Of a DNA stretch of 40,880 nucleotides, positions 15,411-24,058 are shown one piece after another. The position numbers and the translations under genes are program-made. Source of the DNA: Flavobacteriales bacterium (GTDB lineage Bacteria > Bacteroidota > Bacteroidia > Flavobacteriales > UBA7430); the NCBI GenBank assembly GCA_029247585.1, contig JAQWKY010000018.1, forward strand, positions 1-40,880, written 5' to 3'. The notes beneath the pieces were generated by a model, which worked only from the letters and a program-made list of their open reading frames with translations, was not told where the DNA came from and did not search any database. Each line of letters begins with the position of its first letter. The first letter of the stretch is position 1.

Positions 15411-16325
15411 TCACTGTTCGATGGGTAGACAGATCGTAAATTTAGTCCCTTTACCAAATTCAGACTCTACTTCTATTGTTCCATTGTGTTCTTCAATAAT
15501 TCGCTTTGATATTGACATGCCCAAACCAGTTCCCTTGTCAGGGCTCTTGGTCGTGTAAAATTTTTCATAGAGTCTTTCTTTTGTTTCTGCTGTCATTCCG
15601 ATGCCACTATCTTTAATTTCAATTAAAACATCAGTGTTGTTTTTACTGGTTTTAATTGATAAATATTCATTCTTCAATTTTGGTTTTTCTCGAATGGCCT
15701 CAATGGCGTTTTCAATAAGATTAGTAAAAACTTGGTTGAGTTTACCCCTTACACTCTTTAGTATTGGAATATTTCCGAATTGCGTTTGCAGTTCAATAGA
15801 TTCATCAAATGCAGAACCTGCCATTGAAAGTGTGTTCCTTATGCTCTGATTAATATCTGTTTTTAAAAGAATGGGGTTTTTTGATTTCCCTATGAATGCC
15901 AAGTTACTTGAAATCTCATTAACTCTACTTATTCCTTTTTTAATTCGACTGATCGATTTTGTTAACTCTTTTGTGGTTAACTCCATGTTCAACTCTTTTT
16001 CAAAGGCATTGATATCCTCTAGTGTTGTAGGATTATTAACGTCTTTCATCTCTTTATAGAGCTGAGTTAATTTAATGATGTATTGAATATTGACTTCGAG
16101 TATGCTTATGGAATTACTTACCAAGTTGATAGGATTATTAATTTCATGTGCTATTTCAGAGGCCTTTTCATAATAAAGAGGTGCAGGCTCTAGGTCTTTG
16201 AGCTTTTTATTCAATGCTTTAATCTGAAGTTTCAGTTTAGAGTTACCAAACCTGAGCTTTTGATTTGATTTTCTGACACGCCTTCCTTTTTGTTCCGTAT
16301 TATTATTTTTGTCTATCAGTGCCAT
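15411..16325 (-). CDS. Soluble histidine kinase without an evident sensor domain
   Basis: H-box SEIAHEINNPINLVSN, N-box LIENAIEAI, DSGIGM, GTGLGMSISKRIIEEHNG; no signal peptide or TM. Confidence 0.92.
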   Translation of the reverse strand: MALIDKNNNTEQKGRRVRKSNQKLRFGNSKLKLQIKALNKKLKDLEPAPLYYEKASEIAHEINNPINLVSNSISILEVNIQYIIKLTQLYKEMKDVNNPTTLEDINAFEKELNMELTTKELTKSISRIKKGISRVNEISSNLAFIGKSKNPILLKTDINQSIRNTLSMAGSAFDESIELQTQFGNIPILKSVRGKLNQVFTNLIENAIEAIREKPKLKNEYLSIKTSKNNTDVLIEIKDSGIGMTAETKERLYEKFYTTKSPDKGTGLGMSISKRIIEEHNGTIEVESEFGKGTKFTICLPIEQ

Positions 16326-16341
16326 AATTCTAGTTTAGAAT

Positions 16342-18501
16342 TTATTTTTTGTTAAGTTTTTGTACGGGAATAATAAGCCTAACCGTAGTTCCCTTATCAG
16401 CTTTTGAATCCATTTCAACATGTCCATTGTGCGCAATTAATGTTGATTTGACAATTGTCAAACTTACTCCTGTCTTTTTTGCGCCTTTTGTTGTGAAATA
16501 CATATCAAAGGCATTTTCTTGAATCTCTTTTTTCATCCCTGTTCCATTATCCTCAAATGAGATGACAATGCGTGCTGCTATTAATCCTGTTCTTATGGTA
16601 ATCAAACCTTCATTGTCAGGGCTATTTTTTTCTTTGATTGACTCAATGGAGTTTTGTAAGACACTTTTGAAGCAATCATTTATCTTTTGGGCGTTACAAT
16701 CTAACCGAGGGAGATTTTCATTGAGTTCCAGGTTTAATTTAATCGCTCCAAGATTTGATTTCCATAAGTCGGTCAAATTGATCAAGTCTTCATTTACATT
16801 TGTGCTTACCCACCCCTCGTTATCAATCTTTGAAAAATCTTTCAGTTTTTTGGTGTTTACTGCTATTTTTTCCAAACCACTATTTGCTTTTTCTAGAGCA
16901 TCTTTTATGTCTCCCTCAATCGATTTGAAATCGATTTCTTTTTTGTAAGTTTCTAAGTCGTTTAATTCGGTTTCAATATTTTTCGCCGTAGGTAAAATTT
17001 CGTGTAATTTTTCAACATAATTCAATTGTAATCCTGTATTGAGTTCAAGTATGTCAACCGCTAATTGAATGTTCGTATTCGCATTGTTAAATTCATGTGA
17101 TGTTCCTGCAGCCATGAGTCCTAACGCGGATATTTTTTCTCTTTGTATTAGCTCCAGCTCGGCGGCTTCTAGGCGAAGATAAGCGGCTTCTAATTTGTCC
17201 GTTTTGTTTTGCAAAGCAGAAGTTGCCCGTTTAACTTTATGTTTTAAGGTATCTGCTTGTTTTAGTAAGATTTGTTGCTTTTCTCGGCGTTGTTTTAACT
17301 CCTCGGCTTGAGCAATTTCTTTTTCTTCTTTGAGAATATTAATGCGATCAGCAAGAGCGAAAGAAAGAAGAACAACTTCTATTGCAGAGCCAGCCGGTAA
17401 GGTGTAGTTGGTGAAATTGTTATAGGGTAAAACTCCGTAATCTTTCAAGACAAAGATAAATGCACCAATCCATAGTATTGTCCATGCCAAAAGGAAGAAT
17501 TTCGCAGGACGATAACCTAACTTCATTATTTTGTATCCAATATAAAGGGCATATATTGAAAGCAGCATAGTGTTTGTTTGCATTATTTTGAAGCTTTTGA
17601 TTGGATAGTCAAACAACAATAAGCCAATTGAAAGCAAAAAGACAAATTCAAGTACAGTTCCTACTTTATTTAAAACAGGGACTTTATCTTTTGTTCGTAA
17701 GAAGTTTTTAATGAATTCTATCGCAGCGATCCCAGCGATTGAAGGGAAAAGAGTTACGCTTTTATTTGCCCATACGGGAAAATCAGGCATCAAATATTTA
17801 AAATGATATCCTTTTAGAGCGATTTGAGTTAGTAGTATAAAGAGGATGTAGAATACATAATATAGGTAACTATTATCCCTCACGGTAAAATAAATGAAAA
17901 TGTTATAGAGTAACATAACAAGTATAATACCTGCATAAAAGCTAAATAGGGTGTCTTGTTTTGAAATATATGTTATTGTTGTTTTGATAGAGCTGATAAA
18001 AAGCGGCAAAAAAAGTGGTTCATTAGCTTTAACTTTTAGAAAAAAGATTCTCGATTCATTTTTTGGAATGTTTACATCAAAAATATAGTTGGGATGATGA
18101 TAATTTTTATGGTGAAAAGCTTCGTGTTCACCTTTTCGCACTTTTTGATGTTTTTCTGTTGATGAGATTTTATACAGTTCTACTAAATCTATATTAGGCT
18201 GTTCTAAGATTAGATTTAGATTAGAATTAGTTGTGTTGTTTAGTATTTCGAATTTCAACCAAAAGGCAGATTTGGAAATCCCCAGATTAGGGATTTCTTG
18301 TGACGTTAGTTTAAATTCTTGGGAACTTATTACTTGGTCGATAGTCAAAGAATTATTTGGGTCTTCCAGTACCTTTATCGGGGAAATGTTTTTGTGTTGG
18401 TTGTTGTCTGAGTATACAACAACTTTTCCTTGTGCTAAAACGATAATATTGAACAATAAAATTAATGGCAGTAGTAATGATATTTCTTTAATTCCTTTCA
18501 T
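16342..18501 (-). CDS. 7TMR-DISM receptor histidine kinase
   Basis: Signal peptide, periplasmic DISM-like domain (SKSAFWLKFEILNN), about seven TM segments, H-box LGLMAAGTSHEFNNANTNIQ, N-box VLQNSIESI, DNGTGM. Confidence 0.92.
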   Translation of the reverse strand: MKGIKEISLLLPLILLFNIIVLAQGKVVVYSDNNQHKNISPIKVLEDPNNSLTIDQVISSQEFKLTSQEIPNLGISKSAFWLKFEILNNTTNSNLNLILEQPNIDLVELYKISSTEKHQKVRKGEHEAFHHKNYHHPNYIFDVNIPKNESRIFFLKVKANEPLFLPLFISSIKTTITYISKQDTLFSFYAGIILVMLLYNIFIYFTVRDNSYLYYVFYILFILLTQIALKGYHFKYLMPDFPVWANKSVTLFPSIAGIAAIEFIKNFLRTKDKVPVLNKVGTVLEFVFLLSIGLLLFDYPIKSFKIMQTNTMLLSIYALYIGYKIMKLGYRPAKFFLLAWTILWIGAFIFVLKDYGVLPYNNFTNYTLPAGSAIEVVLLSFALADRINILKEEKEIAQAEELKQRREKQQILLKQADTLKHKVKRATSALQNKTDKLEAAYLRLEAAELELIQREKISALGLMAAGTSHEFNNANTNIQLAVDILELNTGLQLNYVEKLHEILPTAKNIETELNDLETYKKEIDFKSIEGDIKDALEKANSGLEKIAVNTKKLKDFSKIDNEGWVSTNVNEDLINLTDLWKSNLGAIKLNLELNENLPRLDCNAQKINDCFKSVLQNSIESIKEKNSPDNEGLITIRTGLIAARIVISFEDNGTGMKKEIQENAFDMYFTTKGAKKTGVSLTIVKSTLIAHNGHVEMDSKADKGTTVRLIIPVQKLNKK

Positions 18502-20003
18502 CAGATATTATATTTTTTAGGAGCTATAATGTCATTTGGGTCAATGGTTTGTTTTATTTTTCTCAATAAATTACTGTAGCTATATTCAACTCCAGTTATT
18601 GATTCATACATATTTGATCCACTCCGATAGGGATAAAATCCCGTTTTCATTAATTCTTTCACACAGTGTTTGTAAAACTCATTTGCCTGCTTTATTGAAA
18701 TTTCATTTTTAGGATAATTGATGTTCGCAATGGCAATTAAATTTCGGCTATTAATAAGGGTAAACGTAATTCTAAACTCATAGTTGAATTGATTAAATAT
18801 GGCCGTAAGCGTTTTGATTAGTTTGGGGATACTTTTTTGATCTGCCCTGCATACAGCAGAAATCCATCTGAAATGTTCGGGGAAATCGTGAGGCTTTATG
18901 TCGGACAATTTTATTTCATCATTATTTACTAGAGTTTTTAGAGGTAAATTAGAGGGAATGCCTTTTTGCAAATCGACAAGACATTTCAGTGTTTCAATTG
19001 TTGACAGGGCCTTAACATACATATTGAAAATCTCCAACCACTTCATAATGAAATCTGTAATGAACCACAACTTGATTCCTTTTACCTCTTTTTTTAATTC
19101 TTTTCTTACAATATGTTTTTTTGCTTTTGTAATTGTTTTGTGACCCGAAACAGATGCACTAAACGACCAAGCACCTACGTTAGTGTTTTTTTGACTACCA
19201 ATTATTCTCGCTTTATTAAAAACATGAACCATACTATTAATAATGCCATTCAAACTTAATTTTCGTAATGCAATAATTAAGTTTACTAGAGCGTCCTCGT
19301 TTTTGACGGTTCCAATTACTGCACAAAATTTTTCTGGTTTAGGCATCAACTCAAGAGTCATTTCTACTACAATTCCCAAGTTGGATTGAACAAACAAGCC
19401 TTCAATACACGGCCCTATCCCATATCGGTAAGTGTTTTTGGCATTAGCATTTTCATATGCTTTGAAACCTGTATGTATTATTTCGCCATCAGGAAGCACG
19501 CTGGTTATGTTAATAATTCGTTCATATTTAAGACCATAATCGGTATGTCCAAATCCTTTTTCCAACACATTACCTACAATACTACTTTCTGTGCCTGCTC
19601 CCGTTACATCTAGTTGTAATTTGTTTTCAGGGAGTGCTTCTAAATATTCATATGCTTGTTGTTGACTAACTCCAGGTTGAAGAGTCATATAGCAAAGCTC
19701 TTGATCTACATTGAGAATTTTATTCATTTTGCTCAATTCAAGAATGAGTTGATTTTTTTGTGTTCCTTGAGCGCATCCATAACCCCAATTTTTACCTCTA
19801 GATATCGGAAATAGTTTTATGTTCTTTTGATTTGCCAATTTGACGATATCAACAATTTCGTCAATCGTTTTAGGGTATACGATTCCCATAGGTTCTATTT
19901 CTGAACCATTTACACTAGATGCATAACTTTCAAGAATATTTTTATCATCAGTATAATTATTAATACCCACGATCTCAATTAATTTATCTTTTTGATACCT
20001 CAC
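18501..20003 (-). CDS. FAD-binding oxidase of the VAO/PCMH family (4-cresol dehydrogenase flavoprotein-like)
   Basis: FPISRGKNWGYGCAQG, GNVLEKGFGHTDYGLKYERI, YRYGIGPCIEGLFVQSNLGIVVEMTLELMPKP; TGA stop overlaps the downstream ATG (ATGA). Confidence 0.88.
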   Translation of the reverse strand: MRYQKDKLIEIVGINNYTDDKNILESYASSVNGSEIEPMGIVYPKTIDEIVDIVKLANQKNIKLFPISRGKNWGYGCAQGTQKNQLILELSKMNKILNVDQELCYMTLQPGVSQQQAYEYLEALPENKLQLDVTGAGTESSIVGNVLEKGFGHTDYGLKYERIINITSVLPDGEIIHTGFKAYENANAKNTYRYGIGPCIEGLFVQSNLGIVVEMTLELMPKPEKFCAVIGTVKNEDALVNLIIALRKLSLNGIINSMVHVFNKARIIGSQKNTNVGAWSFSASVSGHKTITKAKKHIVRKELKKEVKGIKLWFITDFIMKWLEIFNMYVKALSTIETLKCLVDLQKGIPSNLPLKTLVNNDEIKLSDIKPHDFPEHFRWISAVCRADQKSIPKLIKTLTAIFNQFNYEFRITFTLINSRNLIAIANINYPKNEISIKQANEFYKHCVKELMKTGFYPYRSGSNMYESITGVEYSYSNLLRKIKQTIDPNDIIAPKKYNI

Positions 20004-20012
20004 TGTTTTAAT

Positions 20013-20768
20013 TTAAGTAACTCTTTTGTTTAGAATAAGTTGATAGTTAATTTCTATTTCCGACATTTTGGTCTGTTCTATTTTTAGTTGACAGGGGTTT
20101 TCTCTTAACTCCAATATGATTTTTTTATCCAAAGCTGTGGCTGTTTCGAGTGTTTTTGAATTCATAACTCCCAATGTCCATGCAATCATATCCTTTTTAG
20201 GGTAAGGGAAGGTGCCTTTTTCACCCAAAGCTTTACTCTCAACAAACCCAATGTTCCGACAGCTTTGCAGCGTAGGTCGACCAACGATGGCCATTAAGGT
20301 GGTTAATTTTAGTTGATTAGCTACAGCTACAGCTGCTCTTGTTAATCGATGTCCTAAGCCAATCTTTTTATCATTAGAACTCATTTTATGGTGATGTAAA
20401 GAGCTCCACAATCCACACGTTTCCCCAATACCTCCGTATTGAGCATATTGTTTAATCAAAATGCTTATTCTTGAATCCATACAACCGACAGCATCTTCAA
20501 TAGGAAGTGGGAATTCGGGAGTTGCAATATGAATTCGTACCCCTCCAATCATTTCCCCAGTAGTAAGAGATTCTGCAACCAGAACATACACATTTGGATT
20601 GAGTGGCCAGTTGATGTTATTAGAGGTAACCATGTCTATGCCATAGTGCTTTAGTATTTCGTGATGTTTTTTCAGAAATAAAAGGCACACATGAGGCTCT
20701 TCAATAGCTCTTAATACCCGTATGCTAAATTGAGCAAGGTCTTTTTGACTACTCGATAACAGCATCAC
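20013..20768 (-). CDS. GNAT-fold acyltransferase-like protein
   Basis: VYVLVAESLTTGEMIGGVRIHIATPE, GIGETCGLWSS, GHRLTRAAVAVANQLKLTTLMAIVGRPTLQSCRNIGFVE resemble a GNAT/N-acyl synthase core; 9-nt gap to the oxidase gene. Confidence 0.65.
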   Translation of the reverse strand: MMLLSSSQKDLAQFSIRVLRAIEEPHVCLLFLKKHHEILKHYGIDMVTSNNINWPLNPNVYVLVAESLTTGEMIGGVRIHIATPEFPLPIEDAVGCMDSRISILIKQYAQYGGIGETCGLWSSLHHHKMSSNDKKIGLGHRLTRAAVAVANQLKLTTLMAIVGRPTLQSCRNIGFVESKALGEKGTFPYPKKDMIAWTLGVMNSKTLETATALDKKIILELRENPCQLKIEQTKMSEIEINYQLILNKRVT

Positions 20769-20902
20769 ATTTGTTTGGATTAGTTTATTACATTTTTAAT
20801 TTACATGAACCACAGTATTCACTAGGAGAGTAAAATTTTTATAATATTTTAGGATAAATATATATAATTATTTACATTTACTAGAATGTTATTTGTGTTT
20901 AT

Positions 20903-21496
20903 ATGAAAAATGAAAATAAAAGAACAGAAGATGGTACTCCTCTTAAAACAGAATTGGATAAGATTAAAACTGAGTTTACCGATGAGGAAATTCGCAGTCA
21001 GATAAAATCCTACGGTCAGGATTTTACGACGCCTAGAGAAAAAATTAGAATACTCTATTTGGATGATGAGCGCGATGAATTGGAGAGTTTTCAGAGTTTG
21101 TTTCGCCGTATTTTTGAGGTTCATATAGCTTCTACGCCTGAGAAGGCCTATGAAATTTTGAAAACCAAAAATGTTCATATAGTGCTCACAGATCAGAGAA
21201 TGGATTTAATGACCGGTGTTGAGTTTTTAGAATCCATTGTTGAAGATTATCCAGACCCTGTTCGAATTCTTGTTACTGGGTATTCAGATATAACTGCGGT
21301 CATTAACTCAATAAATCAGGGACAGGTGTATAAATATATTTCAAAACCTTACCCAAGAGAGGCTATGCAGAAAAGTATTGAGAATGCTGCCGAAGTTTAC
21401 TTTTTGAGGAAAGATCGGCAAGAGTTGATCCAAAAATTAACAAGGGCTTGTTCACAGTTGGAATTTTTATTGCGCCAAGGTTCCCTTGACGTTTAA
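20903..21496 (+). CDS. Single-domain response regulator (REC plus short C-terminal helix)
   Basis: RILYLDDERDELESF, VLTDQRMDLMTGVEFLE (phospho-acceptor Asp), ILVTGYSD, KYISKPY; tail QLEFLLRQ; no DNA-binding or enzymatic output domain. Confidence 0.9.
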   Translation: MKNENKRTEDGTPLKTELDKIKTEFTDEEIRSQIKSYGQDFTTPREKIRILYLDDERDELESFQSLFRRIFEVHIASTPEKAYEILKTKNVHIVLTDQRMDLMTGVEFLESIVEDYPDPVRILVTGYSDITAVINSINQGQVYKYISKPYPREAMQKSIENAAEVYFLRKDRQELIQKLTRACSQLEFLLRQGSLDV

Positions 21497-23908: not shown

Positions 23909-23967
23909 ATCGTAATCTTTAAATGATTTTTTAAAATTAAAGTCTGATCTGGGCTTTGCGGTAGAGA

Positions 23968-24020
23968 ATACTGCTTTAGCCTTTTTTATAGTGGTAGCAA
24001 TCAGTCAAATTCATCCACTG
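23968..24020 (-). ncRNA. SAM-II/SAM-V-like riboswitch aptamer in the metK leader
   Basis: Minus strand CAGTGG-ATGAATTTGACTGATTGCTA-CCACTATAAAAAAGGCTAAAGCAGTA: P1 AGTGG/CCACT, pseudoknot ACTG (loop)/CAGT (3' tail), conserved TTTG...TTGC...TAAA...GCTAAA. Confidence 0.82.
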
Positions 24021-24058
24021 CTTTGCAAAGATAAGAATAAGATTGATTTAATATTTTA

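Follow-up and report, generated by a model that had tools for sequence, protein, structure and literature searches.

The 40,880-nucleotide (nt) stretch of DNA analyzed here (hereafter the window) is one contig, JAQWKY010000018.1, of the 1.79 Mb genome of a Flavobacteriales bacterium (GCA_029247585.1). It carries a five-gene cassette that we consider likely to make and sense its own signal, an N-acyl (dehydro)tyrosine-type pheromone, with the parts that set specificity forming exchangeable cassettes. Four genes lie on the minus strand: a GNAT-fold, N-acyl amino acid synthase-like enzyme (20013–20768, 251 amino acids), a VAO/PCMH flavoprotein of the 4-phenol oxidase type (18501–20003, 500 amino acids; hereafter the oxidase), a 7TMR-DISM receptor histidine kinase (16342–18501, 719 amino acids) and a soluble histidine kinase, HK2 (15411–16325, 304 amino acids). 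A response regulator of 197 amino acids is transcribed divergently from the plus strand (20903–21496). All five open reading frames were found at the coordinates and on the strands given by an original prediction for this DNA, as were a 9-nt gap between the GNAT and oxidase genes and a 16-nt gap between the receptor and HK2 genes. The 4-nt ATGA overlap that it placed at the oxidase/receptor junction was wrong; the junction reads TGATG, a 1-nt overlap. The GNAT gene probably starts at an ATG at 20765, one codon past the listed GTG, because its relatives align there. Pfam domain matches agreed with the proposed identities of the oxidase (PF01565), the receptor (PF07696, PF07695 and PF02518), both kinases (HATPase_c in HK2) and the regulator (PF00072). 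Two congeners of the window species (species A), namely B (G001) and C (G002), share the cassette with all five genes and its location between a metK/methyltransferase pair and hemW; all three are metagenome-assembled genomes (MAGs).

Searches of the PDB with the GNAT sequence, by phmmer and by profile, returned nothing meaningful, so we predicted its fold instead. The AlphaFold (AF2) model had a predicted local distance difference test score (pLDDT) of 84.7, and Foldseek gave the N-acyl amino acid synthase FeeM (2g0b) as its best PDB match (E 1e-6; template modelling score 0.74 by target length), followed by BjaI, with EsaI also among the matches. The protein as modelled thus folds like FeeM, in keeping with the GNAT-fold assignment made earlier. 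A GNAT profile also matched a Rhodococcus protein that is encoded beside a TrzS-family gene and so occupies the position of TrzA, a stand-in for TrzA itself in this comparison (25 bits, E 1.6e-9 in a 3-sequence set); an hhalign comparison was weak. We rejected an acyl-homoserine lactone (AHL) synthase identity for lack of a family match: no autoinducer-synthase match was found in the window GNAT with Pfam or NCBIfam, or in its 24 relatives with Pfam. A housekeeping acetyltransferase role was rejected because the signalling context is fixed. A Streptomyces GNAT encoded beside a ThiF gene was not a detectable relative.

The oxidase matched FAD_binding_4 (PF01565) at 8e-24, and its PDB matches were 4-cresol dehydrogenase (E 3e-86 by profile), eugenol oxidase and vanillyl-alcohol oxidase, which places it by sequence among the VAO/PCMH flavoproteins, closest to the 4-phenol oxidases. 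In this family a Tyr-Arg pair binds the phenolate. Its counterpart here, Tyr459-Arg460, which together with Tyr75 we take from family knowledge to be phenolate-binding, is unchanged in all five oxidases that we compared. Because these oxidases align to 4-phenol oxidases and keep the Tyr-Arg pair, their sequences suggest a para-hydroxyphenyl substrate such as N-acyl-tyrosine. An AlphaFold model of the oxidase (pLDDT 60, from a shallow alignment) was set aside. Among 396 genomes sampled across the phylum, only that of the window had strong oxidase matches, and a scan of genome contigs with the oxidase alone gave no matches.

GNAT homologues were present in 27 of 298 genomes of the order and 13 of 396 genomes of the phylum sample, and a GTDB scan yielded 221, from which the best 80 were kept. 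We examined 102 homologous neighbourhoods, at least three of them duplicate copies of one contig. They define a module consisting of a REC regulator (usually divergent), the GNAT, a tailoring enzyme and a 7TMR-DISM kinase, usually with a REC-kinase and a small REC protein; HK2 occupies the position held by the REC-kinase gene in other lineages, and the regulator cluster was present in 26 of 29 first-round loci. A 7TMR-DISM gene lay no more than three genes from the GNAT in 95 of the 102 loci (about 93%). Given 1–5 DISM genes per genome of about 3000 genes, chance would place one there in ~0.6% of cases, and we therefore rejected chance adjacency. Of the seven exceptions, contig ends truncate two (L119 and L122), and the other five hold only ThiF and the GNAT. 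The module occurs in Flavobacteriales, Sphingobacteriales, Chitinophagales and Cytophagales, including the named strains Pedobacter steynii, Parapedobacter luteus and Hufsiella ginkgonis. Recurrence of the gene set in unrelated genomes, which the original prediction proposed as its test, thus holds for the combination of GNAT, tailoring enzyme, DISM kinase and REC regulator; the enzyme slot varies, so that the exact oxidase-bearing set is rare and was seen in three lineages. One module contains two tandem GNAT genes (L100:9237-9935), which suggests a two-acylation or two-signal variant.

At most loci the tailoring slot holds a ThiF-nitroreductase fusion or ThiF alone. The fusion of these relatives scored 759 bits against NF005901 (the Rv1355c family; cut-off 476). 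TrzS, the protein of this family, forms an oxazolone from N-acyl-tryptophan by cyclisation and desaturation (PMC12856293). TyzA/B/C carry out equivalent chemistry on tyrosine (PMC10404671), and the substrates of TrzS and TyzBC are N-acyl aromatic amino acids (PMC12856293, PMC10404671). In five loci (L117, L118, L135, L139 and L142) the slot is taken by a class I methyltransferase resembling UbiE/ArsM. The VAO-type oxidase occupies it in the window genus, a Cytophaga MAG (L125) and a Flavobacteriales MAG (L147), and the GNATs of the latter two are nearest to different ThiF-type loci. L147 retains a ThiF remnant of 156 amino acids (L147:9506-9976) in the ancestral position, with the adenylation core deleted in frame and an intact oxidase beside it; judged by its sequence, it is an evolutionary intermediate. 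TrzS-type ThiF and nitroreductase are absent from the window and its genus, where searches gave only MoeB-like matches of 32–34 bits and one weak match of 27 bits. Because of the L147 remnant and this absence, the oxidase appears to stand in for the ThiF/nitroreductase step. On two Rhodococcus plasmids (L151 and L183), a TrzS-family gene and a TrzA-like protein adjoin a GGDEF gene, in agreement with a cyclic di-GMP link noted for the oxazolone pathway (PMC12856293).

Comparison of A, B and C revealed two histories within the cassette. Protein identities (AB/AC/BC) were 28/29/85% for the oxidase and 39/41/87% for the N-terminal receptor fragment (residues 1 to about 214), so that both pair B with C; the sensor and 7TM region taken together gave about 40/41/87%. 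The receptor beyond residue ~375 gave about 80/85/70%, the GNAT 82/86/76%, the regulator 83/87/82% and HK2 64/80/60%; the flanking genes pair A with C, and values were 88/93/88% for metK, 73/84/68% for the methyltransferase next to it, 75/84/73% for hemW and 91/92/87% for HK0. Between B and C, synonymous divergence (dS) was 0.41 for the oxidase and 0.31 for the sensor, as against 1.7–3.75, or saturation, in other genes, which implies that the block has a more recent common source in B and C than their genomes have. The inner breakpoint is abrupt. At receptor residue 372/373, the end of the seven-transmembrane (7TM) region, AB nucleotide identity climbs from 43% to 97%; the breakpoint lies at about position 17385, between PAGS and AIEVVLLSFALADRINILKE. 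The surrounding stretch (AIEVVLLSFALADRIN) resembles the same stretch in receptors across the family. The sequences indicate that the whole oxidase and receptor codons 1–372, which encode the sensor and 7TM region (17386–20003, minus strand), have been exchanged as one block.

Such a block could also be an artefact of linkage, in which co-regulated neighbours moved jointly through contiguity and no ligand is matched. The enzyme directly adjoins the sensor half in the oxidase and methyltransferase loci, and the breakpoints fall within conserved DNA, as homologous recombination requires. We nonetheless regard this explanation as improbable, given the roughly 93% of loci in which the receptor accompanies the synthase and the behavior of the methyltransferase and ThiF loci. 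Four methyltransferase loci have complete receptors (L117, L118 of Hufsiella, L135, and L139 of Mucilaginibacter), and their sensors are alike (47–52% identity in the extracellular part, 61–71% in the 7TM part). The GNAT and kinase half of L139 match those of Mucilaginibacter ThiF loci (up to 77% and up to 83%, respectively), whose sensors are only about 31–36% identical to that of L139. A sensor tree unites the four loci with support of 100, a clade that the GNAT+kinase tree rejects (approximately unbiased test, p-AU 1.75e-53); the GNAT+kinase tree places L139 within Mucilaginibacter, also with support of 100, and the sensor data reject that placement (p-AU 0.008). As far as alignments and trees can tell, the methyltransferase loci are an independent replicate of enzyme-sensor co-exchange, and their association holds across genera over deep divergence.

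The ThiF loci showed a related pattern. In those ordered ThiF-GNAT-DISM, the ThiF-sensor partial correlation given GNAT and kinase was 0.43 (permutation p 0.0005), even with the GNAT gene lying in between; in those ordered GNAT-ThiF-DISM it was 0.67, against −0.16 for GNAT and sensor. Contiguity can explain a single joint transfer, but by these comparisons it does not account for the lasting association of methyltransferase and sensor or for the correlation seen with ThiF. Closely related ThiF and ThiF-nitroreductase loci have common sensors, and the nitroreductase fusion alone therefore does not predict sensor type. A whole-matrix test of same-slot against different-slot pairs at matched GNAT identity found little difference except above 60–70% GNAT identity, since sensor divergence saturates in deep comparisons and ThiF loci have sensors in common whether or not a nitroreductase is present; we used close comparisons and trees in its place.

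Co-exchange of enzyme and sensor would fit any ligand common to both. The receptor might therefore sense an external aromatic or acyl compound that the GNAT and the oxidase or methyltransferase detoxify or consume, with enzyme and sensor co-varying through one foreign molecule; VAO-type oxidases commonly act on exogenous phenols, as is known for the family. However, the constant enzyme folds like N-acyl amino acid synthases, and the TrzS family, to which the commonest tailoring enzyme belongs, is biosynthetic, its pathway starting from an endogenous amino acid and acyl-CoA (PMC12856293). We consider this alternative unlikely. We also think it rather unlikely that the module makes an antimicrobial or a stress metabolite, comparable to the stieleriacines, whose production the two-component genes regulate on another cue. 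N-acyl tyrosines are antimicrobial and stress roles have been proposed for oxazolones (PMC12856293), but no self-resistance or export gene was conserved across the module loci examined, and coupling of sensor type to tailoring enzyme would be unexpected if the cue were unrelated to the product.

The receptor comprises a DISMED2 sensor (residues 42–170), a 7TM region (184–386) and a dimerisation/HATPase region (about 440–719), all with Pfam scores above cut-offs. Its His-box is present; its G2 ATP-lid box is degenerate in A and B, with KKTGVS/QRTGTS in place of GTGLG, and the kinase half in the window genus is a possible pseudokinase. HK2 has intact motifs (H-box SEIAHEINNP, G2 box GTGLGMS) and may therefore be the source of phosphorylation, perhaps while complexed with the receptor. 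The kinase half of the window genus (16342–17385) is ~30% identical to all other module DISM kinases, and its sensor reaches 40% (extracellular) and 56% (7TM) identity to those of other modules. The regulator consists of a single REC domain (residues 50–159) with an N-terminal extension and a conserved C-terminal tail (QLEFLLRQ...). No DNA-binding domain was found in it and its tail is conserved, which makes protein contact the probable route of its output. Directly upstream of where the regulator begins, a block of ~55–60 bp (20851–20910, assigned to neither strand) is nearly invariant in an alignment of the three congeners; the remaining intergenic DNA has diverged, and dS in adjacent genes is about 0.8–3.8. 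The block contains a short inverted repeat, ACATT-N6-AATGT, and is a possible operator or promoter.

We propose that the GNAT-fold enzyme adds an acyl group to the nitrogen of an amino acid, which is most likely aromatic, and that the oxidase completes the molecule. Plausibly it oxidizes N-acyl-tyrosine at the benzylic carbon, by way of a p-quinone methide, to yield a product of the N-acyl-dehydrotyrosine type. Relatives would instead form an oxazolone with a ThiF cyclase, alone or together with a nitroreductase-type oxidase, or would use a methyltransferase to modify the product. Once released, the product would bind the neighbouring receptor at its DISMED2/7TM half and thereby control the receptor kinase and HK2, and these would phosphorylate the divergent REC regulator. 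The tailoring enzyme would set the final form of the signal and the DISMED2/7TM half would recognise it, with the kinases and regulator as generic downstream parts. Because enzyme and sensor must match under this proposal, they would be inherited and exchanged as a block, as pherotype-like alleles, with breakpoints expected in conserved flanking sequence.

The module's recurrence, the TrzS-family enzymes of its relatives and the enzyme-sensor co-exchange all support the make-and-sense circuit put forward originally; the last two extend it further than that prediction did. Synthase and receptor are genetically linked in many genomes, and signal enzyme and sensor have diversified together, as in a pheromone circuit. 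Several observations weigh against it. The GNAT has no Pfam or NCBIfam match and belongs to no curated family. In the oxidase, the region of covalent FAD attachment was not alignable and no position could be assigned to the FAD-linking residue, and Tyr75 (in WGYG) is kept in four of the five oxidases, that of L147 having Leu at this active-site Tyr. The cassette contains no exporter, and five loci have ThiF and GNAT with no adjacent DISM gene. In the ThiF-GNAT-DISM order, the GNAT-sensor correlation (0.46) is as strong as the ThiF-sensor correlation. The allelic comparison involves three MAGs, and the C receptor is split over two contigs, both of them B-type up to the breakpoint. Finally, physical linkage alone would carry the oxidase and the adjacent sensor in one recombination.

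The closest known systems are the TrzAS/TyzACB/OxzAB oxazolone pathways of Mycobacterium, Rhodococcus and Pseudoalteromonas rubra, in which a GNAT-like N-acyltransferase stands beside a ThiF cyclase and a flavin oxidase; Bacteroidota relatives of our locus carry an NF005901 (TrzS) protein above cut-off. The window locus differs in having a VAO-type oxidase in the slot instead of ThiF and nitroreductase, and in its dedicated receptor kinase, none being reported in the cited papers on these pathways. Producers of N-acyl tyrosines and dehydrotyrosines (NasY; stieleriacines, thalassotalic and kyonggic acids) likewise combine an N-acyl amino acid synthase with a desaturating flavoenzyme, but use nitroreductase-family enzymes with ThiF, and no sensor cassette is described for them (PMC12479983). 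AHL quorum sensing through LuxI/BjaI has the same GNAT-type synthase fold and links synthase to detector; the window module lacks an autoinducer-synthase Pfam match, has a membrane 7TMR-DISM kinase in place of LuxR and adds a tailoring enzyme. In the agr and ComQXP loci, which use peptide signals, the signal-making gene and the sensor half of the receptor diversify and exchange together and the kinase half is conserved. Our module resembles them in this joint exchange and differs in its predicted lipo-amino acid signal, its 7TMR-DISM receptor and its occurrence in Bacteroidota. The VAO/PCMH 4-phenol oxidases share family and Tyr-Arg motif with the window oxidase, which departs from them in the divergent middle of its substrate domain and its place inside a signalling operon.

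Surveys of E1-like/ThiF proteins may, reportedly, have listed related neighbourhoods; a partial literature search, with subscription papers outside its reach, found no published description of the module. To our knowledge, few chemical signals have been established for Bacteroidota. With somewhat less assurance than for the window locus itself, we favor the broader view that the modules constitute an unrecognised, Bacteroidota-wide pheromone system, in which a FeeM-like synthase and an interchangeable tailoring enzyme would make N-acyl amino acid signals (oxazolones, dehydrotyrosines and methylated forms), a 7TMR-DISM protein would read them, and enzyme/sensor-half cassettes would move between species. 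The natural role of N-acyl oxazolones has been called a major unresolved question (PMC12856293); if the proposal is correct, these compounds gain a receptor and a function, and 7TMR-DISM receptors gain a ligand family. A conserved synthase-receptor module with natural swaps of enzyme and sensor makes the signalling hypothesis directly testable, since it points out the receptor, the enzymes and the half that determines specificity.

A scan for sigma-70 promoters and terminators gave no excess over shuffled sequences. Immediately upstream of metK lies a SAM-II riboswitch (23966–24024, minus strand; 62.7 bits, gathering threshold 44).

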